Shown here: positions 31,481 through 49,934 of the stretch, piece by piece | Numbering within the stretch: position 1 is the first letter of the stretch | Layout of the letters: each line of letters starts with the position of its first letter | From: Candidatus Limnocylindrales bacterium | GTDB lineage: Bacteria; Moduliflexota; Moduliflexia; Moduliflexales; JAUQPW01 | NCBI GenBank assembly: GCA_035559535.1 | Contig: DATMBG010000051.1 | Coordinates: forward strand, 186,001 to 250,000 | DNA: 64,000 nt | Direction of reading: 5' to 3' | Translations under genes and position numbers: made by a program | The notes under the pieces: generated by a model | What the model was told of the DNA's origin: nothing | What the model saw: the letters and a program-made list of their open reading frames with translations, nothing else | The model's database searches: none

Positions 31481-31882
31481 TCAAAAAGTGGCAGCCTCTT
31501 CAAAGAACTTGATATCTACTACATCCAAACCTTTTTCTCTGGCGCTGTTAGCTACTTTCTGGATCACCATCTTCCGGACAAAGGGAATGGGAATCCGACT
31601 TACCCGATGCACTACCTCTTCTGTACATCGAATATTGGTCCCTTCTAAGAAAGGCCCGTTGACCCGATCTATCTCGGTATGCTCGCAGGTCTCCGGGACC
31701 AGTTGCTGGAGCCGAAGCGAAACATAGTCCGTGATCCATTTTTTCAGGGTTTCTTCCCGGGAAGAGATTTTTTCTTCCTCCTTTTCCAGCTTCTGATGGA
31801 TCTGGATCAATACCTCCTCTAACCGTTGGAGCCGATCTTCAATGGCTTGTAAACGACTTCCTACGTTCAGGTCTTCCATCAA
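31481..31882 (-). CDS. coiled-coil protein with a PCP_red-like C-terminus
   Basis: A 133-residue soluble protein. Residues about 8-52 form a charged coiled coil. The C-terminal segment EEVVHRVSRIPIPFVRKMVIQKVANSA (split here for reading as about residues 89-132) resembles the PCP_red domain found at the C-terminus of light-independent protochlorophyllide reductase subunit B and in many small bacterial proteins. The usual leading Trp is missing. Two more PCP_red proteins occur at 58.8 and 61.8 kb in this window. Function of stand-alone PCP_red domains is not established; a redox-linked role is suspected. Confidence 0.55.
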   Translation of the reverse strand: MMEDLNVGSRLQAIEDRLQRLEEVLIQIHQKLEKEEEKISSREETLKKWITDYVSLRLQQLVPETCEHTEIDRVNGPFLEGTNIRCTEEVVHRVSRIPIPFVRKMVIQKVANSAREKGLDVVDIKFFEEAATF

Positions 31883-32201: not shown

Positions 32202-33602
32202 ATGAAACGAGTTTACAGACTTTTAGGTTGGGGACTTTTTACAGGCTTTTTACTTTTCGGGGCCGATTGGAGCAAAATCAGCTCTGCGGATATAACTATT
32301 AAAAAGAAATCTCAAGAAAGTTTGCGCTCTTCAGAATCTCAAAGGGCTCCAACTTGGTCTAAATCTCGAAGGATTTCTCCCCAATCCGTAACGACGAAGA
32401 AATCTAAATCTGTTTTTAAAGAAGGTCAGATTTTATATGTCAAAACAGAGGCTGCAAATTTAAGGGCGAGCCCCGTAGAGAACCCCGGTAATATTATTGA
32501 CAGGTTGGTTCGGGATACAAAGGTTACTTTTTTAAGGGGTGAAGGGAACTGGTCCCTGGTCCAACTGGAGGATGGCCGAATTGGATGGATCGCTTCATCC
32601 CTTTTGATCCCTAAAAAAATAAAACAAGAAGAGATCCAGACGACAGAAAAATCCCGACCTCAGAAGAAAGCCGAAGAAGTATCTAAACCCCCTTCGTTCT
32701 CCCCTCGAGGGGTATTTCCGGCTCCTTCTCCCTTCAAAGAGAAATCGGAGGAAGTACCTCCGGCACCTCCCCCCAAGCAGGTCTTAATCCCTCCTCAACC
32801 CAAAGTGGAATTTCCTGTTCAAACAGAAACCAAACCTTCCGGTCAACCCGATGTGGAATCTCCCATTCAAATAGAGACAAAATCTTCCGATCAACCCGAT
32901 ATGAAGCTCTCAAGAAAAGTCAGAACCCCTGAAGATATGGTCTTTATTCCGGCCGGAGAGGCTACCCTGGGAAGTAGTGAGGGGGAAATTAATAAAATTG
33001 CTCAGCGTCAGGGCGTCGACCCCTCTGAATTGGCCGATGAAAAGCCCCAACGTCAGGTCTTCCTCAAAGGCTTCTTTATGGATAAATACGAGGTAACCAA
33101 TGCCCAATATAAAAAATTTGTCGATGCCACCGGGCATAAACCCCCTCGCCATTGGGAAGGAAATGTTTACCCGTCTCATAAAGCCGATCATCCGGTCGTT
33201 TATGTTTCCTGGGAAGATGCGGCAGCCTATTGTAAATGGGCGGGGAAACGGCTTCCTACGGCTGAAGAGTGGGAGAAAGCGGCCAGGGGATCTGAAGGAT
33301 TTATCTATCCCTGGGGAAATGAGTATGGAGGAGAGAAAGTCAATCTGGTCAATGCCGGTCGAGGTGATACCTCTCCGGTGGACGAGTACCAAGGAGACGT
33401 AAGCCCCTACGGAGTTTACGATATGGGCGGTAATGTATCGGAGTGGACCCGTAGCTGGTATGACTCAGATCAAAATAGCTATACCCTCAAAGGAGGGTCC
33501 TGGTATACTGAACTCTATACAGCCCGTGGAGCCCATCGTAGCCCGGGTTTGCCCGAATATGAGTTAAATATCGTTGGATTTAGATGCGCCAAAGATCCCT
33601 AA
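32202..33602 (+). CDS. secreted SH3b-linker-FGE-sulfatase-fold protein
   Basis: A 466-residue exported protein. It has a signal peptide (about 1-30), an SH3b domain (about 75-142: ANLRASPVEN, GNWSLVQLEDGRIGWI) and a Pro/Lys/Glu-rich linker with an imperfect tandem repeat (VEFPVQTETKPSGQPD then VESPIQIETKSSDQPD). The C-terminal SUMF1 fold (about 243-466) shows FMDKYEVTNAQYKKFVD, RLPTAEEWEKAARG and YDMGGNVSEWT. The copper-binding cysteines of true formylglycine-generating enzymes, expected after GGSW, are absent (GGSWYTELYTARGAHRS). It is therefore probably a non-catalytic binding domain. No sulfatase gene is nearby. AAGGAGAGAGAT precedes the ATG. Confidence 0.85.
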   Translation: MKRVYRLLGWGLFTGFLLFGADWSKISSADITIKKKSQESLRSSESQRAPTWSKSRRISPQSVTTKKSKSVFKEGQILYVKTEAANLRASPVENPGNIIDRLVRDTKVTFLRGEGNWSLVQLEDGRIGWIASSLLIPKKIKQEEIQTTEKSRPQKKAEEVSKPPSFSPRGVFPAPSPFKEKSEEVPPAPPPKQVLIPPQPKVEFPVQTETKPSGQPDVESPIQIETKSSDQPDMKLSRKVRTPEDMVFIPAGEATLGSSEGEINKIAQRQGVDPSELADEKPQRQVFLKGFFMDKYEVTNAQYKKFVDATGHKPPRHWEGNVYPSHKADHPVVYVSWEDAAAYCKWAGKRLPTAEEWEKAARGSEGFIYPWGNEYGGEKVNLVNAGRGDTSPVDEYQGDVSPYGVYDMGGNVSEWTRSWYDSDQNSYTLKGGSWYTELYTARGAHRSPGLPEYELNIVGFRCAKDP

Positions 33603-33646: not shown

Positions 33647-35092
33647 CTATTTTAACTTATCCAGGTGCTCCTTTACCACCGGGTCCTGCGGGTTGGTTTG
33701 GAGGTATTTGCGGAAATACTCAAGGGCCTGATCCCGATACCTGGCTTCTCGTGTCTTTTGATAACGGATTTCAAAGAGTAAACCCAGATTAAAGATGGGA
33801 AAATCGCTCTTCTCCTGGATATGTAAAGCCTTTAGAAAGGCTGATTCGGCCTCGTCGAGTCGATCGGTCTCAGCAAAAACTACTCCGAGATTGTTATGGG
33901 CATGGGGATTTCCCGGTGCTTGCTCCAGTACCGCCCTGTAAGCTTCCTCGGCTTTTTTTAAAGCAATCCAATTGCCGCTTTTCTCTTCACCTCGCACCAG
34001 GAGATTCATCAAATCTAACTCCACCTCTTCCACATATGAGATGAGAAAATCATCCGGTTGCGTAGAACTCCAGTACTCTAGATGCCGGGCAATACCAAGC
34101 CCTAAACGAGCGGCAGAACTTTGAGGCAGAATCGAGAGAATGGATTCAAAAATAACTGAAGCCGTTTCATAATCTCCACGCTCCAGGGCTTTCACCCCAT
34201 CCGGGAAAAGTTTGACAATTTCATGGGCCTTAATTCTAAAGATTTCCAGTTGTTCCAGTCGCTTAGATAAACTCGGATGAACTTCTGTCTGGCTTTCCGA
34301 TCTGGCTCCCTGATCGGGAGTCTTTATCACATCCTGTTCGGCAGAAGTATCCAGCAGAAACTGATCCCCATAAGCCAGTTTAAGCTTCTCCAATAATCGA
34401 AGGGCCCCCGAGAATTTGTAACCTGTCCGGAGAGCATAAAGTACCCCAAACTGATCGGCTTCGATTTCCTTAGCCCTTTTGATATTCAGAAGGTAAGGTG
34501 AAAGGACTTCGTTCAATTCCATAATTAACCGGGATCTTTCCAGGAAATCTGAAGCGTCCAGATTCTCAAGGATTTTTCGGACATGCCGGGTCTCTTCCTC
34601 ACTATTTAGTTTATAATCTGCGTAATGGCGGAGTGCGACATGGGCAACTTCGTGCCCTATTACAAAGGCAATTTCATCATCTCCCTCACAAAAATACTCC
34701 AGCAAACCCTGGGTGAGATAAATATACCCTCCGGGAAGGGAGAAAGCCTGGGGGCGTAAAACTCCCCGGATCACCCTAAAGGTGTAGTCTAAATTGGGAC
34801 GCTCGGAAACTCGGACGATACGCTCTCCAATTTCTACAACTTTTGGATTCACCACTACTTCGTACCCCTTACTCCTCAAGGTATTTTCAACTTTTACAGC
34901 CGTTGCCTTTCCGGCTATTTTCTCCTCAAAAACGCTCAAGACGATCAGCTTTTTACCTTCTGAATCCATTCCCTCCTGGGATAATGGCAGGTCTATAGCC
35001 CCTATCGAGGTTTGAAAGAACCCAAAGAATAAGTCAAGGAGCACGAAAACAAGAAAACTCTTCGCTAACTTGCCTCTATAAATTCTCCTCAT
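33647..35092 (-). CDS. M48-type metallopeptidase with TPR domain
   Basis: A 481-residue exported or membrane-anchored protein. A hydrophobic N-terminus (about 8-28) is followed by a zinc-metallopeptidase domain with HEVAH in FVIGHEVAHVALRHY (HExxH) and the third-ligand region EIEADQFGVLYALRTGY. The C-terminal half holds TPR units (for example AHNNLGVVFAETDRLDEAES). This is the BepA/LoiP-like layout of periplasmic quality-control proteases. ATG at 35092 overlaps the TGA of the upstream CHAT gene as ATGA, implying translational coupling; a TTG two codons earlier is also open. It ends 45 nt from the convergent SH3/FGE-fold gene. Confidence 0.88.
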   Translation of the reverse strand: MRRIYRGKLAKSFLVFVLLDLFFGFFQTSIGAIDLPLSQEGMDSEGKKLIVLSVFEEKIAGKATAVKVENTLRSKGYEVVVNPKVVEIGERIVRVSERPNLDYTFRVIRGVLRPQAFSLPGGYIYLTQGLLEYFCEGDDEIAFVIGHEVAHVALRHYADYKLNSEEETRHVRKILENLDASDFLERSRLIMELNEVLSPYLLNIKRAKEIEADQFGVLYALRTGYKFSGALRLLEKLKLAYGDQFLLDTSAEQDVIKTPDQGARSESQTEVHPSLSKRLEQLEIFRIKAHEIVKLFPDGVKALERGDYETASVIFESILSILPQSSAARLGLGIARHLEYWSSTQPDDFLISYVEEVELDLMNLLVRGEEKSGNWIALKKAEEAYRAVLEQAPGNPHAHNNLGVVFAETDRLDEAESAFLKALHIQEKSDFPIFNLGLLFEIRYQKTREARYRDQALEYFRKYLQTNPQDPVVKEHLDKLK

Positions 35093-38000
35093 TTCCAATC
35101 CCCCACCAGGACAAAGGGAGCCCAGAAAAAAGGATGCGATAAGGATAAATCCTTGACTGTTCTTCTCCCATGGGTTATGTGCTGTCCCATGACCATCAAA
35201 GAAGCTTGGCGCAACGCTTCTGCCCGGGTTTTTGTTTTAAGGTTTTGATAAAACTGGTACATCAAAATCGGAGTTGCAAAATCGCTAACCCTCCAGAGAC
35301 TGGATAAAACAGTCGGAACTCCGGCATACATAAAGGCTCGATTAAAAGCTATAATCTCATCCCCGGATACCAGAGTTTCCATCTCCTGGGAAGTAGAATC
35401 TTGAGGTAAAGAGGTCTCGCAGCCACTCAGGGTTACTAAATTCGCTTTTAAGCTCAATCCCAAGACCTGACTGACATAGAATCTCCCATCTCCTGGATCC
35501 TCAGAAGCCAGTTCCAGGTAAGATAGCAAAGGTTTTTCCTTGTCATAGACACTATGGGTAGCCAAGTGGAGGATCTGATACGATGGGGAAAGTTTCATAA
35601 ACCGTTCCTTTGAAGCCTCGGAACCTTGATAAAGAGTTACCTGTGAAAAAACCCTGGATAGGGACTTAAGTTCAGCTTCTGCACCCGGTAAGTTTCCATA
35701 GGGATTTCCCATGGCTAATAACTCACCTGGTACAGGATATCGTTTATTTTCCAGGTTTTTTTCTCGAAGCAACGGCAACAGACTCAACGAAGGAAGATAA
35801 AACACGGCATAGTCCTGGATAAGGTATCTCTGATTCTTAAGGGCTGCAAAGGGTATAAAATTCAGGATTTCATGGGGAACAATCCCAAGCACCTTCTTCC
35901 CTGCCAGAACTTCTTCAACAGGAGCTATCAGAGCTTCATGAAGTTTCTTAGCAGGGTCTACAAAATCCCGAGAGGGCCCTCCCTCTGCCCTCCCCGCGGG
36001 CGGAGAGATTCGGGCCTTCACCGAAGAACGAAAAGCCAGAACCTCCCGGGTCATTATCTCTCGGCTGATGGGAACTTCTCGATAAACCAGCCGCTCCTTC
36101 GTTACCACCCAGATATAAATCTTTTCTTCGTCTAAAAAGTACTCTATGATGGCTACCTCTGGATCTAGTAAGGCTCTGGCTTTGGTCATCATCTCTCTAA
36201 GCTCTTCAGCCTTGACACTTTTTAGATGAGCATAATCCGGTTGCGTCAATTGAATCCGAATCCATAATTCCTCATATCGGTTTTTAGCAGATTCCAGTTC
36301 CTCTTTGAGTTCCAGGAGTTGTCGATTCAGATAACTCTCGGATTTCAAGTTTCGCGTCTCGGAGGAATCCTTAGAACCCGGTGGATTAAAGCGATAGGCC
36401 GGATCACTTTTACTTGAAACCTCATTCAAAGGGGTATCTAAACCTGTAGAGCCGGACTCTAGGAGACTGGATTGAGAGAGAAGATTAATTTGTCGATGTA
36501 AAAAGCGAATTTCGGCAAAAAGTTCCTGTTCTTCTACCAGGAGTGGACTTCCCTCTTTTATTTTAAGGGAAGGTCCGCTTAAGAGCGTTTCTAAGAAGGT
36601 TCTGGCTCGAAATCTTTCCAGGTAAAATAAAGCTTCTTCCACCTTACCTCTTCTCAGAAGCAGGCGGATGGTATCCCTATAAAGATTCGATTTCTGTTGT
36701 GTATATAAACGCCGAATATCTGCTTCCTCCAGATTAGCCCGTAGACTTTCTACCTGATTGATGGCATCTAAAAAATTCTGCAGGGCCATTTCTTCTTGGC
36801 CCATTCTTCCATAGACAAGCCCAAGCCGGTGAAGTAAATGCGCTTCTATATGAAGACGATTTTCCCGCCGTGCAAGCTCCAGCCCCTTCTTATAAGCGCT
36901 CAGGCTTTTCTCCCAGTCTCCGATCAACCCATAACCATCTCCCATATATCCCCAGGTTTCCATAACTCCCTGTGAATAGTCCGTCCCTTCGTAAAGAGTC
37001 AGGGCTTTTTCAAAATTTTCCAAAGCTGCTGCGCCTTCCCCTTGATCTTGTGAAATTAATCCCATCCCCTGTTGAAGGTCTCCTTCGAGTAAAGGCAATG
37101 TGAAAGGTAGATCGGTTCCCAGGTGCTTCAATTCTCTGACGAGCTCAAGCCCTTCTTGAAGAAAATTTTTTGCCTTAACCCAATCCTTTTCCTTTCGATA
37201 TAAAAGAGCCAGATTTTTGAGGGTTATAACCAGCCCGATCTTATCCTGGATTTCCCGTCGAAGCGTTAAGGAAGACCGATAATAAGTCTCGGCTCGATTT
37301 AAATCCCCTAATTCATTAAATAAGTCCCCCATATTGCTCAGGGTTACTGCCTCACCTTGTTTATTTCCTATTTTTTGATAAAGATGCAAAGCCTCCCAAT
37401 ATTGCTCCAAAGCCCTGGAATAGTCCCCCAGACCGGCATAAGCAAGTCCAAGATTGACCCGGGCATTACCCTCTCCATAGACATCACCTTGTTGTTGTTT
37501 TATCTCCAAAGAACGACGTTGATTCTTTATAGATTCAGTCAGGTTTCCTAAGAAAAGCTGGGTAAGGCCAAGATTTCCCAGGGCAAAGGCCATCTTATCA
37601 GTGCGTTGAAGGGTTTTATAGATCTCCAGGGCTTCTTGTTGGACTTTCAAAGCGTCCCGGAGTCTTCCCAAGTTCACATAGATAGCGCTTAGATTCATCC
37701 GGGAGTCCGCAATACCTTCAGGATCTCCTAACTCCTCCATAAGGGCTAAGGCTTGATGTTGAGCCTCCAGGGATTTTTTTAACTCTCCAAGGTTTCGATA
37801 GACTACCCCGATTCGTCTCAAAGCGATGGCTTTCTCTCTGGTTTTACCTAGCCGATTATAAAGTTCCAGGGCTTTAAATTGAAATTCCAGGGAAGTTTGG
37901 ATTTGCCCCAAGCGTCGGTAGATGACCCCCAACTCGCTCAAGGTTTCGGCTTCCAGAAACAACTGACCCTCTTTATGAAAGAGATCCAGAGCCTGGTTAT

Positions 38001-38211
38001 AAGTATCCCGTGCTTCCTGGAGTTTGCCGGCCCTGACCAACTGTTTTACCTGGTTAAAATATTCAAGTCCAGGACTCTCTCCCCCTAACCGGCTGAAATT
38101 TCCCTCTTCACCCGGCGCAACCGCTATCCACTCTATGGTTACCAATAATAACAGTCCTATAAAATTGAATCGCCGAGTTTTAGGTTGGAGGCCTGTCAAG
38201 GGTATCAACAT
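35089..38211 (-). CDS. TPR-CHAT caspase-like protease
   Basis: A 1040-residue protein with a hydrophobic N-terminal segment (about 16-34, a signal or anchor) and roughly a dozen tetratricopeptide repeats (about 45-500; for example AIALRRIGVVYRNLGELKKS, ARVNLGLAYAGLGDYSRALE). A coiled linker (about 560-660) leads to a C-terminal CHAT domain. The catalytic dyad is visible as His (about 884) in LHLATHSVYD and Cys (about 931) in TLSGCETS. CHAT is a clan CD (caspase/separase-like) protease; TPR-CHAT proteins act in regulated proteolysis and some in defence. An M48 metallopeptidase gene follows with an ATGA overlap. The N-terminal hydrophobic segment suggests action at or outside the membrane. Confidence 0.9.
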   Translation of the reverse strand: MLIPLTGLQPKTRRFNFIGLLLLVTIEWIAVAPGEEGNFSRLGGESPGLEYFNQVKQLVRAGKLQEARDTYNQALDLFHKEGQLFLEAETLSELGVIYRRLGQIQTSLEFQFKALELYNRLGKTREKAIALRRIGVVYRNLGELKKSLEAQHQALALMEELGDPEGIADSRMNLSAIYVNLGRLRDALKVQQEALEIYKTLQRTDKMAFALGNLGLTQLFLGNLTESIKNQRRSLEIKQQQGDVYGEGNARVNLGLAYAGLGDYSRALEQYWEALHLYQKIGNKQGEAVTLSNMGDLFNELGDLNRAETYYRSSLTLRREIQDKIGLVITLKNLALLYRKEKDWVKAKNFLQEGLELVRELKHLGTDLPFTLPLLEGDLQQGMGLISQDQGEGAAALENFEKALTLYEGTDYSQGVMETWGYMGDGYGLIGDWEKSLSAYKKGLELARRENRLHIEAHLLHRLGLVYGRMGQEEMALQNFLDAINQVESLRANLEEADIRRLYTQQKSNLYRDTIRLLLRRGKVEEALFYLERFRARTFLETLLSGPSLKIKEGSPLLVEEQELFAEIRFLHRQINLLSQSSLLESGSTGLDTPLNEVSSKSDPAYRFNPPGSKDSSETRNLKSESYLNRQLLELKEELESAKNRYEELWIRIQLTQPDYAHLKSVKAEELREMMTKARALLDPEVAIIEYFLDEEKIYIWVVTKERLVYREVPISREIMTREVLAFRSSVKARISPPAGRAEGGPSRDFVDPAKKLHEALIAPVEEVLAGKKVLGIVPHEILNFIPFAALKNQRYLIQDYAVFYLPSLSLLPLLREKNLENKRYPVPGELLAMGNPYGNLPGAEAELKSLSRVFSQVTLYQGSEASKERFMKLSPSYQILHLATHSVYDKEKPLLSYLELASEDPGDGRFYVSQVLGLSLKANLVTLSGCETSLPQDSTSQEMETLVSGDEIIAFNRAFMYAGVPTVLSSLWRVSDFATPILMYQFYQNLKTKTRAEALRQASLMVMGQHITHGRRTVKDLSLSHPFFWAPFVLVGDWK

Positions 38212-39094
38212 CCCCTTTATCCGAACCCGCCGATCCCCAAGTAGGAGTCGAATCTCTCCTCCCCTAGAAGGGATTTAGAAAATTTTTCCGGCAGGCTTCA
38301 AGCAGGGACAAAAAGGTTATTCCACAAAGAGAGGAGTTTTCCAAGTAAGTAAGTTAAAATTGTTTATTGACACTTTTTCCGGTTCGGTATATCCTGACCT
38401 ATACCTGGTATATTTATTGCTTATAAATTTATAACGATATTTTATGCACCACTGTATAACACGTTAGTCTGAACATCTAGAATTCTAAAATTCCCCACCG
38501 CGCTAGTTTTCATGGGATGGGGTAACGCAAAGAACTGTGAAAGTCTCGTCTACTCTTTGTTTTTAGCTAAAACCCGGAAGTAAGAAAACACGGTTCCAGA
38601 CAAAAACGGAATGTATCATTTTTTACCAAATTTTAAACGCAGGCTACTCCAGGTCTTCCCTTCAGCTCCCCGAGGAGTAGACCTGGAATATCTTGCGATT
38701 TTACAGATCCTTCCGAGGGTTTAGCAAAACTGCATGCAAAGGTATGACCCGGATAAATAGGAATTTTATAAACGCAGGTTAACGTTTGTAAGTTCATACA
38801 AGATTTCTGTTCCCGATGCAAGAAAAATATGTAGGAAATCTTGTGGAATTAGTGATCTATTGAATTCTTATTAAAAGTAAGAAATATAAAAAAAGGTGAA
38901 TTTTTCTATCCAGCCCATTTAGCGGCATTATTTTCAATTTCCAGATAAATGAGGGGGTATCTTCACCCAGAGCTTACAAGGATTTCCCTTTTTTATAAGA
39001 TGTGAGGGAGTTATTGTAAGAAACTCTTTGCACCTACTTAGAACTTTCCAGAAGGTAATAAAAGAGTAGGCTCTGTGAAGAAGCCATCCTGAAA
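38212..39094. other. 883-nt divergent intergenic region with possible structured leader
   Basis: A consensus-like plus-strand promoter (38367-38395) lies 700 nt before the J-domain gene. Between them are several potential stems: a CCCCA/TGGGG stem near 38492-38521 followed by AACGCAAAG, TCCAGGTCT/AGACCTGGA near 38648-38688, and ACAAGATTTC/GAAATCTTGT near 38808-38843. A direct repeat of AAACGCAGG occurs at about 38635 and 38769. No tRNA or known riboswitch could be established. The minus-strand frame at 38633-38821 is not convincing. Confidence 0.45.
38367..38395 (+). promoter_or_regulatory. candidate promoter facing the J-domain gene
   Basis: TTGACA, 17-nt spacer, TATCCT. It would produce an approximately 690-nt leader or a separate short RNA. 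Confidence 0.45.
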
Positions 39095-40843
39095 ATGAAC
39101 CTTATACCACTTATTAATCTCTGGTTGGGCTTTCCGTTTTATATAAAATTCTTAGGAGTAATAGGCATTTATAGCGTTATTTGTTTTTTGACCTATCAAA
39201 TCGGGCGGATAAATATTCAGATAGCTCAACAGATTCCCCTTAGGGAAGGGGCTTTAAGAGTTCATCTGGCTAATGTAGGTATTCTCCTTCTATCTGCCGT
39301 GGCAGGTTCTTTGGGATTAGCCTTGGGTCCACTTCTTACCTCTTTTCCTTACAACTTTCAGTATGCGATCAGCTTAGTTCTAACGGGTCTTTTTAGTTTC
39401 TGCACCGTCTATAGTATGGGAGCTTTTCAACCTGGTATCCGGGGAACTCGGGTTTTCGAAACCACTTACCTGAGGAGGGTAGTGGAACTTCCCATTATCT
39501 TTTTCAAGGCCTTATATCAATTAGTAAATCGAGTCCTTCATGCAATTTTGGCTCCTGGTCAGGACCTTTGGGGACTTTTTATCGGGGTGAGCCTTTTGGT
39601 ATTACTCCCCTATGGTTTTGTATCTGGAGAGGTATTTCTGAAAATTGTATGTTTAACCTTAGGGGGTATGGGACTCACCCTATCCTTTTCAGAAAGTCTC
39701 ACGAAGCTCTTTAACCACTCTTTTTTCCCAGAGTCTGTCATACATAAACACCGGGTGTTACAACTGATACTCGGGGCAGCGGGTTTTTTCTTAAGTATTC
39801 TGGTCTCAGAGGTCTCATTTGTTCTGACGCTTCAGTCTTATTATCTAATGGTAAGTGGGATAGCCGGTTTTTTTATAGGAATAGGAGTAGGTATTCCCCT
39901 CACCGAGACCCGGTTTTACCAGCAGCAACTAAGTCGAGAGCAGGAGCGACAAAGACACATTGAAAAATCCGATGTGGAGAAATTACTCGCCAGAATCCCT
40001 CGGCATATAGAGGATTATCGTCGACTAATTTCTTCTCATCCTGATACTTCTGCCCATTCCCTTTTGACAGAGTTAGAGGAAAATTTTCAAGCCTTAAAGA
40101 CGGAATTTCTCTCCCAGCCAACTTCTTATCAGAACCTCAAGGAGAGGTCTATTCGACTGGAAAATCGATTAAAAGTTCTGATTCGAGAGGTTTACCAGGG
40201 TCACATTGCCGGAGGAGGAAAGCCTGCTCCATCGGTTGTGAACTCCTCTACCCGGACCAGGCAGTATGAACCGAAGGTCCAGCACGAAAATGCCAGAGAA
40301 CCACAGGAACAACCATCTGGAAGGACGTTTACCCCACAGACCCAGATAGGGCAGAAAAGTTCCCAGGGAGAGTCCGAGATTTCTAAGGAAGCCCTTCAGC
40401 AGATCCTTTCAACGACCCGGATGCTGATCGATGAACTTAAAATCAAAAATGCAGGTGGAGGAGCCGTCTTGAGTAACACCTTAGCCCTGGAGGCCCGGTT
40501 AAACGGCTTACAACGGAAGTTAGAAGGACGACGGGTCGCCCTAGCTACAGCCTATATGGAAGCCTCCAAGCTTAAAGAAACGGTAGAAATGCTTAGCTAT
40601 GCTGTGGCGAGTGAAGAATCCGCCGAAGTCATAAAACCACTGACCGAGGCAGAATGCCGTGAGATCCTCAATGTAAAGGTAGGGGCGAGTAAAGAAGAGA
40701 TTAAAAAAGCTTATAAAGAGCTGGCCAAGCTCTACCATCCGGATAAGTTTGTTAATAGCCCACCGGAAATGAAGGAAAAGGCCGATAAAGCATTTAAGAA
40801 AATTAACGAGGCCTATCAATTCCTCATGGGTCAACCGGAATAA
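39095..40843 (+). CDS. membrane-anchored J-domain protein
   Basis: A 582-residue protein with about seven hydrophobic segments in residues 12-275, a charged soluble middle (about 280-500) with coiled-coil stretches, and a C-terminal J domain (about 515-580). The J domain contains LNVKVGASKEEIKKAYKELA and the HPD tripeptide in LYHPDKF (about residue 548), needed to stimulate Hsp70 ATPase. The layout, membrane N-terminus with J domain at the very C-terminus, is like DjlA-type or cyanobacterial-style membrane J proteins, but the N-terminal domain is not recognised. It probably recruits DnaK to a membrane site. Confidence 0.85.
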   Translation: MNLIPLINLWLGFPFYIKFLGVIGIYSVICFLTYQIGRINIQIAQQIPLREGALRVHLANVGILLLSAVAGSLGLALGPLLTSFPYNFQYAISLVLTGLFSFCTVYSMGAFQPGIRGTRVFETTYLRRVVELPIIFFKALYQLVNRVLHAILAPGQDLWGLFIGVSLLVLLPYGFVSGEVFLKIVCLTLGGMGLTLSFSESLTKLFNHSFFPESVIHKHRVLQLILGAAGFFLSILVSEVSFVLTLQSYYLMVSGIAGFFIGIGVGIPLTETRFYQQQLSREQERQRHIEKSDVEKLLARIPRHIEDYRRLISSHPDTSAHSLLTELEENFQALKTEFLSQPTSYQNLKERSIRLENRLKVLIREVYQGHIAGGGKPAPSVVNSSTRTRQYEPKVQHENAREPQEQPSGRTFTPQTQIGQKSSQGESEISKEALQQILSTTRMLIDELKIKNAGGGAVLSNTLALEARLNGLQRKLEGRRVALATAYMEASKLKETVEMLSYAVASEESAEVIKPLTEAECREILNVKVGASKEEIKKAYKELAKLYHPDKFVNSPPEMKEKADKAFKKINEAYQFLMGQPE

Positions 40844-41965: not shown

Positions 41966-42150
41966 GATAGGAATCGTAATGGGTAAATCCTAAAGGAATA
42001 GGGGCGAAGGGATCTGATAGGGAAGGGTTAGCCTGGTCTTCATAATTTTCTTATCCTGAGAGGTTTGGTAAATTAGAAAATACGATCCATCTTATTTAAG
42101 ATAATCCTCACACGGGTTACCATCCAAAATTTCAATTCTTGGATATTTTT

Positions 42151-45100
42151 ATGAGTTTGTGGGATAGATTAAAAGGTAAGAGTGACAAGAAGAGGAAGGA
42201 ACCTACAGTCTCTTCATCTTCAGATAATGGATCTTCTGCTTCCGATCCGAATCAACTTCGCAGCTCACCCACTCCTGCCAAAAACTCTCCGGAAAGTCTG
42301 GCTAAGGAGGGGATTTCTGCCCATTCCAGAGGTCTCAGATCCGGCAGTGGCTCTTCCATTTTAGGTTCTCGACAGAGTAAGGATCCCCTACGGGTATGGA
42401 TGCCTGGAGAGATTATAGAAGGTCGTTATGAAGTTATCCAGGAATTAACTGGAGGAGCTATGGGACAGGTTTATCGGGTAAGGCATCGGGATTGGAACAT
42501 CGAGTTAGCTATTAAGAGTCCCTTACCCCATCTGATTGCCAATGAAGATCTCAAGGCCCGATTTATTGAAGAGGCTGAAAGCTGGGTGGAGCTGGGTCTT
42601 CATCCCCATATCACAACCTGTTATTATGTGGCTCAAATTGAAGGAATGCCACGCATTGTTTTAGAGTATGTCGAAGGGGGCACCCTTAAGGACTGGATCA
42701 CCCGGGGGGTGTTTCTTCAGGATCTGGAGACCCCATTGGCCGTGGCTATCCAGCTTTGCCTGGGGTTGGAGTATGCCCATAGTAAAGGGGTTATTCATCG
42801 AGACTTAAAACCAGCCAATGTACTTCTGACAAAGGGAGGAACTCCCAAACTTACGGACTTTGGTCTGGTCAAACGAAGTGCCAGGGTCAGAGATCAGGAT
42901 TCGATACGATCTTCCTCCCCGAGGTTAGATACTCGATCTGTAGAAGCGACCCAGGTAGGAACCATCTTGGGGACCCCAGAGTATATGGCGCCTGAGCAGT
43001 GGGCCGGAGCAGAACAGACGGGGGTTCATACAGATATTTATGCTTTGGGATTAGTATTTTATGAACTCTTCTGTGGTCGGCGTCCTTTCGAGCTTACAGA
43101 AAATCTACGATATGCCCATCCGACCCTTCAGGAACGGGAGTGGGAGCGGATGCATTCCCAGGAGCCCGTTCCCGATCCCCATCAATGGCGAAGGGATCTT
43201 CCCGAAGCACTGGTCATGATCTTGAGGGAATGTCTAGCCAAGACTCCTGTGGACCGGCCACCGGATGTTAAATCGGTCAGAGAACGGCTGGAGTTGATCT
43301 ATCAAATGCAAGTCGGGCGGACAGCTCCTTACACGCAGGCGGCGACAGATCTGGACCTTCGGGCAGATAGCCTCAATAACCGGGCCCTTTCCTACTTAGA
43401 TTTGGGGAAAGAAGTAGAAGCGGAGGCCACCTGGCGAAAGGCTCTCGCAGTGGATCCTCAACACCCTGAAGTGGTTTACAACCATGGAATTTTCCTTTGG
43501 CGCCGGGGTCGTTTAACAGACGAAGCACTGGTAAGGCAATTGGAAGAGGTCCGGGCCACCCACGGCAATTGGTGGCAGGCCATGTATCTCCTGGCTCTTG
43601 TGCAGTTTGAGCGGGGAGAGATAGATTTAGCCCTCTTACTCCTGGAGGAAGCAGCCCGACAGGCTCCCCAAGAAACAGAACTCCAGGAGCCTCTTCGGTT
43701 AGCCAGATCCCGTAGTCTCGCTACCCGTCGCTTTTTACGGAACTTTGAAGGGCATAACAGTTATGTAAGTTCTGTATGCCTGAGTCAGGATGGACTTTGG
43801 GCACTCTCCGGGAGTGGAGATAGTACTCTGCGGCTCTGGGAAGTTGCTACGGGTCGCTGTCTGAGGGTCTTTGAAGGACATACCAGTTATGTAAGTTCTG
43901 TGTGCCTGAGTCCTGACGGGCGCTGGGCCTTATCGGGAAGTGGAGACAATACCCTGCGACTTTGGGAGGTAACGACAGGCCGATGCTTAAGGATCTTCGA
44001 GGGGCATACTAAAGGAATATCCTCTGTTTGCCTGAGCACTGAGGCCGATAGTATGGGTGTTGCCCGTTGGGTCTTATCGGGAAGCTGGGATAAAACTCTA
44101 CGACTTTGGGAAGTTGCCACGGGACGATGTCTGAAGGTTTTCGAAGGACATACCAAGGAGGTCCTTTCGGTTTACCTGAGCAGCGATGGAAAATGGGCCT
44201 TATCCGGGGGTGGAGATAATACCTTGCGACTCTGGGAAGTAGATACTGGCCGATGCTTGAGAATCTTCGAAGGGCATATCAAGGGGATCATGTCTGTTTG
44301 TTTAAGTACCAATAAACGCTGGGCCCTTTCAGGAAGTCTGGATAAGACACTGGCATTATGGGAGGTGGATACGGGTCGATGTTTGAGGGTCTTCGAAGGA
44401 CATACCAACTACGTGACTTCTGTACATCTCAGTGAAGATGGACGTTGGGCCTTATCCGGGGGTGGGGATAATACCTTGCGACTCTGGGAAGTAGATACCG
44501 GTCGATGTCTGCGGACTTTTCAAGGACATGTCGATTGGGTGACTTCTGTCTATCTGAGCAAGGACGGGCGTTGGGCGTTATCCGGGAGTGGGGACAGAAC
44601 CTTAAGGCTTTGGGAATTACCCCGGGAGAGTATCTGCTCTTTTCGCCTCAGTCGCCCCAGGTCCCATACCGACTGGTTGGAAGTTCAGACCCGGATAGCC
44701 GAGTTATTAAAGGGAGCCGAGGAGGCATTGAAAAAGGCCAACTTTAGTGGGGCTCTGACCCTGGTACGAGAGGCTCGAAGATTACCAGGTTGTGAACGTA
44801 CCCCCCAGACCCTGGAAGCCTGGGCAAAACTTTCTCTTATTTGTCCCCGGGTGGGCCTGCGGGCCGTATGGTTAACCAAAACCTTTGAGGGACATAAGAA
44901 TGAAATCAATACCGTTTGTCTCAGTACAGACGGACGCTGGGCCCTCTCCGGAGGAGGTAATAACATCTTACTTTGGGATGTGGTTACCGGACGTAATTTG
45001 CGAACTTTTCAGGGGCATACAGGTTCCGTACTCTCTGTTTATCTCAGCAACGATAAACAGTGGATTCTCTCCGGGGGGAGTGATAATACGCTGCGACTCT

Positions 45101-45999
45101 GGGAGACGGAAACGGGCCGCTGTCTGAGGGTTTTCCAGGGTCATACCAACTGGGTGAGATCGGTTTGCCTGAGTCCCGACAGACGCTGGGCCCTCTCCGG
45201 AGGAGGTAATAACATCTTACTTTGGGACGTGGCTACCGGACGTTGTATCCGGACCTTTTTAGGACATACCAACTCGGTACTATCGGTTTGCCTGAGTCCC
45301 GATGGATGTTGGGTTCTCTCCGGAGGTGGAGATAATGTAGTACGGCTCTGGGATGTGACCACAGGACGTTGTATCCAGACCTTTCAAGGACATACCAGTT
45401 GGGTGAGATCGGTTTGCCTGAGTCCCAACGGACGCTGGGCCCTCTCCGGGAGTGGGGATAATACCCTGAAACTTTGGGAAATAACTACAGGACGTTGCCT
45501 ACAAACCTTCCAGGGTCATACCGATGGTGTAAACTCCGTCTGTCTGAGTACCGATGGACGTTGGATTCTGTCAGGGGGCAGCGATAACACCCTACGGCTC
45601 TGGCAAACCGGCACAGGACGTTGCATACGCACCCTTGAAGGACATACCAGCTGGGTAAGATCCGTCTACCTGAGTGCCGATGGACGTTGGGCCCTTTCCG
45701 GAGGAGGGGATAAAACTTTGCGACTCTGGCAACTGGATTGGGAACTTGAAGCCCGTGATCCGGCTACCTGGAATGAAGGGGCTTTACCTTATCTTAAGTC
45801 TTTCCTGATACTTCATACTCCTTACGCCAGCTCAGATCCCACCAAGCCAGAGGGACTTACACGACGGGGCAAACCTTGCTGGAATGAGCAGGATTTTCAA
45901 GAGCTTCTTCGTCAACTCCAATACGCAGGTTATGGAAGACTTCGCCCTGAAGGGATACGTACCAAGCTCGAAGAGCTTGCCCGGTCTCTAACCCCCTGA
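42151..45999 (+). CDS. Ser/Thr protein kinase with fourteen WD40 repeats
   Basis: A 1282-residue cytoplasmic protein. A Ser/Pro-rich N-terminus is followed by a Hanks-type kinase domain (about 91-385). It has the glycine-rich loop TGGAMGQVY, the lysine in LAIKSPLP, the catalytic loop HRDLKPANVLL (about 217) and DFG in LTDFGLVKR. The activation segment has a long Ser/Arg-rich insertion before GTPEYMAPEQW. A short TPR-like region (about 405-520) leads to WD40 repeats (about 529-1197): seven units, a 70-residue break, then seven more, fitting two seven-bladed propellers. The C-terminal 80 residues are unrecognised. ATG at 42151 is preferred over an upstream TTG. First gene of a four-gene operon. 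Confidence 0.93.
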   Translation: MSLWDRLKGKSDKKRKEPTVSSSSDNGSSASDPNQLRSSPTPAKNSPESLAKEGISAHSRGLRSGSGSSILGSRQSKDPLRVWMPGEIIEGRYEVIQELTGGAMGQVYRVRHRDWNIELAIKSPLPHLIANEDLKARFIEEAESWVELGLHPHITTCYYVAQIEGMPRIVLEYVEGGTLKDWITRGVFLQDLETPLAVAIQLCLGLEYAHSKGVIHRDLKPANVLLTKGGTPKLTDFGLVKRSARVRDQDSIRSSSPRLDTRSVEATQVGTILGTPEYMAPEQWAGAEQTGVHTDIYALGLVFYELFCGRRPFELTENLRYAHPTLQEREWERMHSQEPVPDPHQWRRDLPEALVMILRECLAKTPVDRPPDVKSVRERLELIYQMQVGRTAPYTQAATDLDLRADSLNNRALSYLDLGKEVEAEATWRKALAVDPQHPEVVYNHGIFLWRRGRLTDEALVRQLEEVRATHGNWWQAMYLLALVQFERGEIDLALLLLEEAARQAPQETELQEPLRLARSRSLATRRFLRNFEGHNSYVSSVCLSQDGLWALSGSGDSTLRLWEVATGRCLRVFEGHTSYVSSVCLSPDGRWALSGSGDNTLRLWEVTTGRCLRIFEGHTKGISSVCLSTEADSMGVARWVLSGSWDKTLRLWEVATGRCLKVFEGHTKEVLSVYLSSDGKWALSGGGDNTLRLWEVDTGRCLRIFEGHIKGIMSVCLSTNKRWALSGSLDKTLALWEVDTGRCLRVFEGHTNYVTSVHLSEDGRWALSGGGDNTLRLWEVDTGRCLRTFQGHVDWVTSVYLSKDGRWALSGSGDRTLRLWELPRESICSFRLSRPRSHTDWLEVQTRIAELLKGAEEALKKANFSGALTLVREARRLPGCERTPQTLEAWAKLSLICPRVGLRAVWLTKTFEGHKNEINTVCLSTDGRWALSGGGNNILLWDVVTGRNLRTFQGHTGSVLSVYLSNDKQWILSGGSDNTLRLWETETGRCLRVFQGHTNWVRSVCLSPDRRWALSGGGNNILLWDVATGRCIRTFLGHTNSVLSVCLSPDGCWVLSGGGDNVVRLWDVTTGRCIQTFQGHTSWVRSVCLSPNGRWALSGSGDNTLKLWEITTGRCLQTFQGHTDGVNSVCLSTDGRWILSGGSDNTLRLWQTGTGRCIRTLEGHTSWVRSVYLSADGRWALSGGGDKTLRLWQLDWELEARDPATWNEGALPYLKSFLILHTPYASSDPTKPEGLTRRGKPCWNEQDFQELLRQLQYAGYGRLRPEGIRTKLEELARSLTP
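43735..45735 (+). repeat. WD40-encoding tandem DNA repeats
   Basis: About 126-nt units repeat within the kinase gene, in two blocks (43735-44620 and 44875-45735). Neighbouring units share long near-identical stretches in DNA, such as those coding for GRWALSGSGDNTLRLWE, indicating recent duplication or conversion between blades. Confidence 0.85.
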
Positions 46000-46050
46000 A
46001 CAGGAAGACCTCAACTGAGATCCTGGGCTTGACTGTGGGGAACTGGAAAA

Positions 46051-48279
46051 ATGCCGAGTTTGATTATCAAAAAGCCCAACGATACTGAAACCTATTTCGT
46101 CCTTGATAAAGAGGTTATAACCCTTGGCAAGAATGAACCTGAAGAAGGTGTCCAAAATGATATCGGCTTTGAGGATAAGACGGTCTCCCGTCATCATGCC
46201 AGAATCCTGAAAGAAGGAAACCATTACTTCATCGAAGACCTGGGAAGTAAAAATCATACTTTTGTTAATGGTAAGGAAATAAAAAAAGCGGAACTTAAAC
46301 ATGGGGATTTGATTACCATTGGACTCAACACCTTGATATTTGAAGCAGAGGACGCCACAGTTGTGAATCCTGCCGATCTGGAAGTTAAGTTTCAGGAATT
46401 AGATAAAAGTAAAACCGTAGACCTTAATTATATTATTCTCTATCAGATAAGTGAGAAACTGGTTACGGTCGCTGACCTGGATGAGTTTTTAAAGTCAGTT
46501 ATGGAGATGATCCATCTGGCTATTAAGGCTGAAAAGAGCCTGCTCCTGCTTTTGGAAGAGGATGGAGAGCTACATCATCGAGTGGGTATAGGTCCGGATA
46601 AACTTTACAGTAAGACCATGGTTGAAAAGGTTCGCCGCGAAAAGCGATCTTTCATGACCTCCCTTAAAGTAGACATCACAACCTCTATGATCTTTCGTAG
46701 TATCCAATCGGTTATGGCAGCTCCCTTACTAAAATATAACGAGGTTATAGGTGTCATTTATATGGAAGATCCCAGGCCTGCTAAATTTAGCCCCAGTGAT
46801 CTTACCCTGTTAACCGCCATTGCCAATCATGTTTCTTCAGGGATAGAACGCGTCAATCTCAATGCCCGAATAAAAAAGGAGGCCTTAATAAGAAGTAATC
46901 TCGAGCGCTTTCTTTCCCCACATGTGGCCGATAAGATAACCCGAGACAGTCTGGAAACCGGAAAAGTAGACTTAAAGGCTGAAAAAGTACTTGCAACTAT
47001 TTTATTTGCAGATATTAAGGGGTTTACCCTCCTTACTGAAAGACTGGATCCCTCTGAAATCGCAGATCTCTTAAATGAATATTACTGTTTTGTAACTGAC
47101 ATTATCTTTAAATATGAAGGTACGCTGGATAAGTATATGGGGGATGGAGTTATGGCCATATTTGGAGCTCCTATTCCTTATCCCCATCATGCAAGAAATG
47201 CCGTGATGGCCGCCCTGGAGATACAAAAAGAACAGAAAAAGTTTAAGGAAAGACTTGACCCGCGAAAAAAGTTCGATGTAAGAATAGGCATCAATACAGG
47301 TGAAGTGGTAGCCGGTTATATTGGCTCACCTAAAAGGATGGAATACACGGTACTGGGGGAAGAGGTAGTTCTTGCCTACCGTTTGGAATCTATGGCGAAT
47401 GCAGGGGGGATTTTTATTGGAAAGCAAACCTACAAGCTGATCGAGCAGGACTTTGAGGTTCAGTTCGTAGAAAAGATTAAAATGCCTAAAGGAGAAAAAG
47501 ATATGGAAGTTTATAAGGTTTTGGGAGAGAAACCCAAGGTGTCATGGAAAGTTGGATACAAAAGCGATGTGGGAAGGGTACGAACCGGTAACGAAGATAG
47601 TTTCTATGTGGATGAAGAGGGCGGCCTATTTATTATTGCAGATGGCATGGGTGGACACCAGGGGGGAGAAGTAGCCAGCAAAATAGCTGTGGAAGTAATA
47701 TCCAGTTTCTTAAAAGATAAGATTTCTCGAGAAACCACCCCTGAGGTTACTGCTGAGCTTATCATGAAGGCCCTTTTTAAAGCCAACGATGAGGTTAGAA
47801 TAAAAGGAGAAAGTGATTTCTCGCTCCGGGGAATGGGTACTACGGTTGTCCTGGCCTTTTGTCGAGATAACGACCTTCATATCGCCCACATTGGAGATAG
47901 CCGGGCTTATCTGATCCATGATGGGAAGATTCAACAACTTACAGAAGACCATTCGGTTATCACCCAAATGGTAAAAACCGGAAATCTTACAAAGGAAGAG
48001 GCAAAAAACCATAAACTGAAACATATGCTGAGCCAGGCCCTGGGAACTTCTACTTATTTGGCTCCCGATATCCAAGTATTTAACTGGATAGCCGGGGATT
48101 ATATTCTCCTCTGCTCGGATGGGCTTACAGATATGCTAAATGATCAAGAATTGCTTTCGACCATTCTGGAATGCAGCATCGGAGAACCTCAAGAAGGCTG
48201 TGAAATGCTGGTAGATCTGGCAAATAAAAAAGGTGGAAAAGATAATATTACGGTGATTTTGTTATATAAAACCTTATAA
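46051..48279 (+). CDS. FHA-GAF-class III cyclase-PP2C phosphatase fusion
   Basis: A 742-residue four-domain signalling protein. FHA (about 1-100; SRHHARI, GSKNHTFVNGKEI) binds phosphothreonine. GAF (about 130-275) is a sensor fold. The class III cyclase domain (about 308-490) keeps both metal Asp residues, in FADIKGFTLL and DKYMGDGVMAIFG, and the adenine-type Lys, but the transition-state Asn is replaced (GEEVVLAYRLES). The PP2C-type phosphatase (about 504-742) has GNEDSF, IADGMGGHQGGE, HIGDSRAYL and GGKDNITV, all metal sites retained. It can thus read, signal through and erase phosphorylation. It lies 51 nt after the WD40 kinase gene. Confidence 0.93.
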   Translation: MPSLIIKKPNDTETYFVLDKEVITLGKNEPEEGVQNDIGFEDKTVSRHHARILKEGNHYFIEDLGSKNHTFVNGKEIKKAELKHGDLITIGLNTLIFEAEDATVVNPADLEVKFQELDKSKTVDLNYIILYQISEKLVTVADLDEFLKSVMEMIHLAIKAEKSLLLLLEEDGELHHRVGIGPDKLYSKTMVEKVRREKRSFMTSLKVDITTSMIFRSIQSVMAAPLLKYNEVIGVIYMEDPRPAKFSPSDLTLLTAIANHVSSGIERVNLNARIKKEALIRSNLERFLSPHVADKITRDSLETGKVDLKAEKVLATILFADIKGFTLLTERLDPSEIADLLNEYYCFVTDIIFKYEGTLDKYMGDGVMAIFGAPIPYPHHARNAVMAALEIQKEQKKFKERLDPRKKFDVRIGINTGEVVAGYIGSPKRMEYTVLGEEVVLAYRLESMANAGGIFIGKQTYKLIEQDFEVQFVEKIKMPKGEKDMEVYKVLGEKPKVSWKVGYKSDVGRVRTGNEDSFYVDEEGGLFIIADGMGGHQGGEVASKIAVEVISSFLKDKISRETTPEVTAELIMKALFKANDEVRIKGESDFSLRGMGTTVVLAFCRDNDLHIAHIGDSRAYLIHDGKIQQLTEDHSVITQMVKTGNLTKEEAKNHKLKHMLSQALGTSTYLAPDIQVFNWIAGDYILLCSDGLTDMLNDQELLSTILECSIGEPQEGCEMLVDLANKKGGKDNITVILLYKTL

Positions 48280-48336
48280 AGACCTTTAAGTTAAATAAGT
48301 CTCAAACGAGGGTTTAAGGACAGGAGGATAAATAAA

Positions 48337-49833
48337 ATGCCGCGTTTAATTATAAAAGGGCGGAATGCTCCTGAGAGGGTTTTTAATCTGGATAAAGATG
48401 TCATTACCATAGGTAAGGACGATCCGGAAACAGGGATTCAAAATACCATAAATCTGGACGATAAAACGGCTTCACGTCGTCACGCCAGAATAACCCGAGA
48501 AGGAGAAGACTATTTTATTGAAGATTTGAAAAGTACTAATCATACCTTTGTCAATGGTAAGGAAATAAAAAAGGCAAAACTTAAACATGGAGATCGAATA
48601 ACCATCGGATTTAGTACCCTCGTTTTTGAAACCGAAGGTATCAAGTTCATTAATCCCTCCGATCTGGTCATTAAATTTCAAGAATTAGATAGAAGTAAAC
48701 CCCTGGATCTTAATTACTTTATTCTCCATCAGGTGAGTGAGAGGTTGGTAACGGCTACCAATTTAGAGGAGTTTTTAAAATCCATCGCAGACCTGGTACG
48801 CTTATCTATAAAGACCGAGAAATGTCTGTTGTTCCTTCTAGGGGATGATGGAGAGTTATATTGTCGTGGGGTTAGCGGTCCGAATAATTCCTATAGCAAA
48901 TCCTCTGTTGAGAGGGTTCGGCACGAAAAACGATCCATGATAAGTTCCCTTGAGTTTGAACCTACCGATACCTTGAAGACCCTTATGTTTCAAGGAATAC
49001 AATCCATCATGTGTGCACCTATACTTAAATATGGGGATGTGGTGGGGGTTATCTATGTGGAAGACTCCAAACCGGGAAGGTTCAGCGAAAGTGACCTTAT
49101 CCTGTTAACTACCATCGCCAATCATATCTCCTGGAACATAGAGAAGGTTATCTGGAATGAAAAGAGAAAAAAGGAGGGAATTGTTCGAAGCAATCTGGCA
49201 CGGTTTATTCCCCCCCACATTATCGATAAGATGATCCGGGATAGCGTAGATCCAGAAGAAATATGTTTAAAAACTGAGAGGATTCCAGTGACGATCCTGA
49301 TATCGGATATCCATGGATTTCCACTTCTTATTGAGAAACTCAATCCTTTTGAAATTGCCGAGGTTTTAAATGAATACTATACCCTGATGACCGAGGTCAT
49401 CTTTAAATATGAAGGAACCCTGATCAAATATGATGGCGGCGTGGTGGTAGGGGTTTTTGGGACCCCTATTTCCTTTCCCGATAGAACAAAAAATGCAGTA
49501 CTGGCGGCTATTGAGGTGCAAGACCGGCAAAGAACTTTCAAGGAAAAACAAGATCCGAGAAAAAAATTGGATTTAAAGATCGGAATCAATACCGGGGAAG
49601 TTGTGGCAGGTTATATGGGATCTCCCATCAGAATGGAATATACCGTACTTGGAGAAGCGGTCACCCTGACCCATCGCCTGGCATCCCTGGCAGAACCTGG
49701 CAGTATTCTTGTGAGTAAACAGATTAATGACCTCGTTAAAGTGGATTACATTACGAAATTTATAGGAAAAATGAAAACCTCTAAGGGAGATGAAAAGATA
49801 GAAGTTTACAGCGTCTTGAGTAAAGTTTTATAA
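48337..49833 (+). CDS. FHA-GAF-cyclase-like paralogue, probably inactive cyclase
   Basis: A 498-residue paralogue of the first three domains of the upstream protein, clearly arisen by tandem duplication: FHA (about 1-100; SRRHARI, KSTNHTFVNGKEI), GAF (about 130-278) and cyclase fold (about 312-495). The first metal Asp is kept in ISDIHGFPLL, but the second is lost: the expected MGDG is DGGV in IKYDGGVVVGVFG. The transition-state Asn is also changed (GEAVTLTHRLAS). Catalysis is therefore unlikely. A regulatory or dimerising role is plausible. The PP2C domain is absent. ACAGGAGG before the ATG is a good ribosome site. Confidence 0.92.
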   Translation: MPRLIIKGRNAPERVFNLDKDVITIGKDDPETGIQNTINLDDKTASRRHARITREGEDYFIEDLKSTNHTFVNGKEIKKAKLKHGDRITIGFSTLVFETEGIKFINPSDLVIKFQELDRSKPLDLNYFILHQVSERLVTATNLEEFLKSIADLVRLSIKTEKCLLFLLGDDGELYCRGVSGPNNSYSKSSVERVRHEKRSMISSLEFEPTDTLKTLMFQGIQSIMCAPILKYGDVVGVIYVEDSKPGRFSESDLILLTTIANHISWNIEKVIWNEKRKKEGIVRSNLARFIPPHIIDKMIRDSVDPEEICLKTERIPVTILISDIHGFPLLIEKLNPFEIAEVLNEYYTLMTEVIFKYEGTLIKYDGGVVVGVFGTPISFPDRTKNAVLAAIEVQDRQRTFKEKQDPRKKLDLKIGINTGEVVAGYMGSPIRMEYTVLGEAVTLTHRLASLAEPGSILVSKQINDLVKVDYITKFIGKMKTSKGDEKIEVYSVLSKVL

Positions 49834-49855
49834 GAGCTGATATTAAAAACTTAGG

Positions 49856-49910
49856 CAATGAACAGTTGTTATTTACAAACCCGAGATTGTAAAAAATCAA
49901 TTATTCATTG
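49856..49910 (+). repeat. imperfect hairpin between signalling genes
   Basis: CAATGAACAGTTGTTATTTACAA pairs with most of 49887-49910 (TTGT...TTATTCATTG) with few mismatches. It lies just before the start of the FHA kinase gene. Confidence 0.55.
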
Positions 49911-49934
49911 TTAATAACTAAACTAAACTTAAAG

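Follow-up and report, generated by a model that had tools for sequence, protein, structure and literature searches.

A putative envelope operon pairing a caspase-like TPR-CHAT protein with a BepA-like M48 metallopeptidase in Candidatus Moduliflexota, and a similar operon in a second lineage

Bacterial caspase-like CHAT proteins have been studied mostly inside the cell. In a 64,000-nucleotide stretch of DNA (hereafter the window) from a genome of Ca. Moduliflexota (KSB3), the gene of one such protein overlaps that of a zinc metallopeptidase, and both proteins start with hydrophobic segments. Are these two proteases functionally linked, and do they work in the envelope? With only two proteins, the pair offers a way to test whether caspase-like relays operate in that compartment of bacteria.

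The sequence confirms both frames and the ATGA through which, according to the first-pass annotation, the TPR-CHAT and TPR-M48 genes overlap (Table 1), and translational coupling of the two is predicted from this arrangement. A listed form of the M48 protein with 483 aa starts at a TTG (35098), two residues upstream of the ATG. The cysteine placed at about 931 by the same annotation is exactly C931, the partner of H886 in a catalytic dyad that is kept in at least 90% of 33 relatives, and the TPR scaffolds that it assigned to both proteins are also present, with six TPR_12 stretches recognized by Pfam N-terminal to the CHAT domain and C-terminal TPRs in the M48 protein. The profile match and the His/Cys dyad place the first protein in the CHAT family (PF12770, clan CD), with a predicted caspase-like protease activity. 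The second is assigned to the M48 peptidases (PF01435) by its HExxH motif (H147, E148, H151), a downstream Glu ligand (E209) and an HPx4R plug (H272-P273-R278); H147, E148, H151, E209, D213, H272, P273, and R278 are invariant among 19 M48 proteins. Both genes are under purifying selection of matched strength, with dN/dS of ~0.17 for M48 and ~0.16 for CHAT. The intergenic region 5' of the operon holds no ORF of 90 aa or more and promoter- and terminator-like counts near chance, and there is no Rfam match within 25000-47000.

Table 1. Coordinates of the gene pair, its surroundings, and further loci mentioned in the text.
Feature	Position	Strand	Size	Details
TPR-CHAT caspase-like protein	35089-38211	minus	1040 aa	Pfam CHAT 7.3e-62, residues 752-1038; export segment ~12-31, TPR solenoid 47-540, coiled-coil linker 556-656, CHAT domain 752-1038
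BepA-like M48 zinc metallopeptidase	33647-35092	minus	481 aa	ATG at 35092; Pfam M48 6e-25; signal segment ~10-31, M48 domain 82-283, C-terminal TPRs ~300-479
ATGA overlap, CHAT stop/M48 start	35089-35092	minus		direct sequence reading
Intergenic region 5' of the operon	38212-39094		883 bp	place where a minus-strand promoter would lie
SH3 and FGE-sulfatase protein	32202-33602			convergent to the M48 gene
DnaJ-like protein	39095-40843
Signalling cluster	42139-51434			first gene product 1286 aa
PCP_red segments	31481-31882, 58819-60699			first below the Pfam cut-off
M48 and truncated TPR-CHAT ORF, contig C5 of the window genome	L106:1542-3674		251 aa, 382 aa
S8 genes directly downstream of CHAT	L140:6108-7325, L144:6594-7883, L149:1376-2728, L165:8566-9948, L175:5747-7144			four families
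Giant CHAT proteins, examples	L103:7464-15953; also L100, L126, L136, L142, L168, L169, L179, L182, L183

The hydrophobic N-termini reported for the two proteins are export-type segments, in each case a positive stretch followed by a hydrophobic core. The signal of the M48 protein (MRRIYRGKLAKSFLVFVLLDLFFGFF...IGA) is good, that of the window CHAT protein (KTRRFNFIGLLLLVTIEWIAVA) is weaker and imperfect, with a Glu within the hydrophobic core, whereas the signals of the orthologues in Ca. Vecturithrix granuli are clear, including that of CHAT (MAYRFFWIWSIIIVCLLPEWSDA). As judged by a simple, permissive N-terminal heuristic, these segments bear out the shared envelope destination proposed earlier. 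However, the accompanying claim that an exported CHAT protein would be unusual does not hold, because signal-like N-termini are frequent (74 of 120 complete CHAT proteins, sampled across many phyla, vs 158 of 345 other genes), the PDB contains DdvA, a transmembrane CHAT anti-sigma factor (8rot/8rw5), and a survey of bacterial caspase homologues described many with N-terminal helices or signal peptides (PMC3501461).

We found that the pair extends beyond the window genome. The nearest named records are from an uncultured bacterium JAUQPW01 (~91%) and bacterium UASB270 (~44%), which we take to be Ca. Vecturithrix granuli; the latter is also placed in Ca. Moduliflexota (KSB3), and its genome groups with the window genome at the order level. 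The two genes are kept in the same-genus genome G001, at 90-91% identity and with the same ATGA layout, and in Ca. Vecturithrix granuli (M48 45%, full-length CHAT 36%), where they are separated by a 19-bp gap. These pairs rule out that the arrangement is unique to the window genome, and its conservation across genomes, on which the first-pass reading depended, is thereby established for Moduliflexota, where the pair occurs in only three genomes, two of them from one genus. All three M48 proteins retain every catalytic residue. In G002, a fourth genome of the order, the M48 matches are weak throughout and a strong CHAT match is lacking. When the window was compared with 19.5 kb around the Vecturithrix pair, CHAT and M48 were the sole matches besides weak TPR ones. 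Since the pair is kept across two genera while its flanks differ, and since dN/dS indicates purifying selection, we conclude that the association is not due to chance.

Several neighbouring genes were considered on their own account. The SH3/FGE-sulfatase gene (formylglycine-enzyme fold) was rejected as a linked third member: it is kept in G001 but does not lie beside the Vecturithrix pair, its best match in that genome being on a different contig. On the other side of the operon, a protein that begins with hydrophobic segments and ends in a DnaJ domain has no counterpart in Ca. Vecturithrix granuli, and G002 and G003 gave no match to it. Further along, a Ser/Thr kinase with TPRs and 14 WD40 repeats opens a dense signalling cluster that continues with FHA-GAF-cyclase genes, one of them with PP2C, and an FHA-kinase gene. 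Two segments resemble a protochlorophyllide reductase subunit (PCP_red), and no photosynthesis genes were seen near them in the window. Elsewhere in the window genome, on contig C5, a small M48 gene precedes a truncated TPR-CHAT ORF; with its reversed order and truncated CHAT, we judged this to be a different, degraded locus.

A search with PF12770 (E <=1e-25) matched 93 of 385 genomes, and ~120 CHAT loci were retrieved with their flanks for neighbour comparison. Outside the order of the window genome, an M48 gene is near only three of the ~120, two of these being distant, and a single further lineage, that of G026, has it as the next downstream gene in the same orientation. Broad conservation of a CHAT-M48 arrangement is thus ruled out, with two lineages only among these loci. 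G026 belongs to a genus of ~15 species that resembles a sulfate reducer because dsrA is present. In this genus CHAT is followed by M48 with gaps of 1-25 bp on all 11 contigs that carry both genes, and both proteins have signal peptides wherever the N-terminus is readable. The CHAT protein is much larger than that of the window (~2800-2900 aa), and the M48 protein lacks TPRs and carries an SH3-like region at its N-terminus. A similar operon thus recurs outside Moduliflexota.

Phylogenetic tests bear on how the two operons are related. The paired M48 proteins of the G026 genus group with an unpaired M48 of their own genus (support 99), and constraining all paired M48 proteins to one clade is rejected (p-AU 0.006), which on the M48 side rules out a single ancestral CHAT-M48 module; the paired M48 proteins come from different branches, and the M48 partner, at least, was therefore recruited twice. 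One clade for the CHAT proteins of both lineages is not rejected (p-AU 0.499), and these orthologues may share ancestry. Taken together, the comparisons indicate that the link between CHAT and M48 is real and recurrent, and that it arose independently in the second lineage.

The G026 genus also suggests which of the two is the constant member. CHAT is found in 15/15 species, with an intact dyad where readable, and three of these lack an M48 gene near CHAT (tblastn found none); in the one M48-less locus that was fully read, a convergent RelA/SpoT-like gene lies directly after CHAT. Among 12 M48 proteins, eight keep HExxH and four have the zinc ligands replaced (HESAQ, RESAQ, REAAH, RETAQ) in frames that remain open, the plug His being gone too. 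In a tree in which several forks are weak, paired M48 is found on either side of the genus, which makes it likely that loss and inactivation of M48 are derived and repeated. With CHAT constant and M48 decaying or lost, CHAT is the core member. The zinc-ligand loss and gene absence beside an intact CHAT dyad speak against M48 as an obligatory activator of CHAT in this genus; the loss of M48 shows that CHAT can act alone there, and M48 may in part be a dispensable passenger.

What the two proteins might do together is suggested by their nearest relatives. A structural model of the M48 protein is of moderate confidence (pLDDT 65.8), and details of how its two halves meet were left aside; its best Foldseek matches are BepA (6ait/6sar) and 3c37. 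E. coli BepA (YfgC) and the window M48 share a signal segment, HExxH, the third-ligand Glu, the HPx4R plug, and C-terminal TPRs. However, the window protein reaches only 42.6 bits against the BepA equivalog NF052400 (cut-off 570) and is therefore no BepA orthologue, and we did not find a CHAT gene neighbour described for E. coli BepA in the literature consulted. In BepA, an active-site plug with the HPx4R motif holds the enzyme shut (PMC7950410), and the window M48 retains this motif. The AlphaFold model of the CHAT protein (mean pLDDT 81.8) has separase, Csx29/TPR-CHAT, and DdvA as nearest Foldseek matches. Csx29 of Craspase (type III-E CRISPR) has the same TPR solenoid and CHAT domain with an equal dyad position, but the window protein scores 30.3 bits against a cut-off of 300 and carries an export signal, and no Cas family was found among the neighbouring window proteins examined. 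DdvA is a membrane-linked protein whose CHAT domain matches in both structure and sequence profile, although an anti-sigma domain is absent from the window protein, as is a sigma gene from the neighbours scanned. Around ECF54 sigma factors, a CHAT gene lies near a second protease, as in the window, but there it is a subtilase, and the loci include an ECF sigma gene (PMC8999054). Pro-nuclease/protease pairs, including caspase-nuclease (canu), offer a precedent for a protease recurrently paired with the gated enzyme that it activates, though the partner is a nuclease and the systems are antiphage (PMC12799240).

Because the M48 protein is nearest to BepA and 3c37 and retains the plug motif of closed BepA, we favour an action of CHAT on or through M48. 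Under this reading, both proteins would be periplasm-facing envelope proteases made from one conserved operon, with TPR-CHAT as the controlling member; its TPR solenoid would bind an envelope ligand, its caspase-like active site would make a specific cut, and the co-translated BepA-like M48, shut by its HPx4R plug, would most likely be bound or cut by CHAT, and thereby opened or redirected toward the breakdown of envelope proteins. We infer from the above a direct contact between the two, the direction from CHAT to M48, and a role in envelope stress or quality control. We hold this account of a conserved envelope operon as tentative, at somewhat less than an even chance, and its recurrent, gated BepA-like partner provides a concrete substrate candidate for an exported CHAT protein.

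The main rival is that both are periplasmic proteases, expressed together but each acting in parallel on envelope proteins and not on the other, M48 on outer-membrane proteins like BepA, and CHAT on a separate substrate of its own. This would agree with the BepA-like architecture of M48 and with the persistence of CHAT without M48 in 3/15 species of the second lineage, but the ATGA coupling, the retention of the pair despite flank turnover, and the zinc-dead M48 proteins kept beside CHAT suggest more than this, and we regard purely parallel work as rather unlikely. A bolder version of control by CHAT, in which an envelope proteolytic relay between an exported TPR-CHAT and a plug-gated M48 was assembled separately in the two lineages, with M48 sometimes a pseudoprotease, we consider unlikely as a whole.

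CHAT could also be the sensor or effector of an envelope-side conflict (phage, attack by a neighbour, self-killing) with M48 as executioner, given that conflict systems (PMC10907252), and also Craspase, use CHAT domains as proteolytic effectors, and that the phylum includes filamentous bacteria (PMC4312070). Yet PADLOC returned for the CHAT protein only a generic TPR match and one weak match to the TPR part, and none for M48 or the CHAT domain alone; BovA matches 6 of 40 CHAT domains, that of the window not included; the genes around the pair serve transport, metabolism, and signalling; and a dN/dS of ~0.17 shows no diversification. A defence-island setting is thus unsupported by neighbours or PADLOC, and we find such a role improbable. 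Still less probable is that M48, active or dead, serves CHAT in the manner of a pseudoprotease, either as an adaptor that brings it substrates or as an inhibitor that holds it back: four of the 12 second-lineage M48 proteins, without zinc ligands or plug His but with open frames, would fit, whereas eight of the 12 keep HExxH and the three Moduliflexota proteins retain all catalytic residues. Chance adjacency, for which one may recall that both families are common and that M48 is near so few CHAT loci outside the order, is largely refuted by cross-genus conservation amid flank turnover and by independent recurrence, and we hold it very improbable.

Both proteins belong to known families; we found no paper on CHAT paired with M48, and no description of the CHAT-to-M48 operon, in the literature consulted. 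The pair may nevertheless be viewed beside other cases of CHAT with a second protease. Among 66 genes directly after CHAT, Pfam identified five S8, three M48, three C14, and two CHAT proteins, and none of these is among the families with at least two members in 49 control genes. With a custom profile, S8 directly after CHAT is enriched (5/87 vs 3/804, p 0.0004), a value that is optimistic, one family supplying two of the cases and the profile having been built from such genes. The association of CHAT with subtilase has already been described around ECF54 sigma factors (PMC8999054). A CHAT signal is absent in some of the S8 pairs (Table 1), so that CHAT and a second protease need not share a compartment. 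Giant CHAT proteins of ~2300-2950 aa are found in many families, and several of them have signal-like N-termini.
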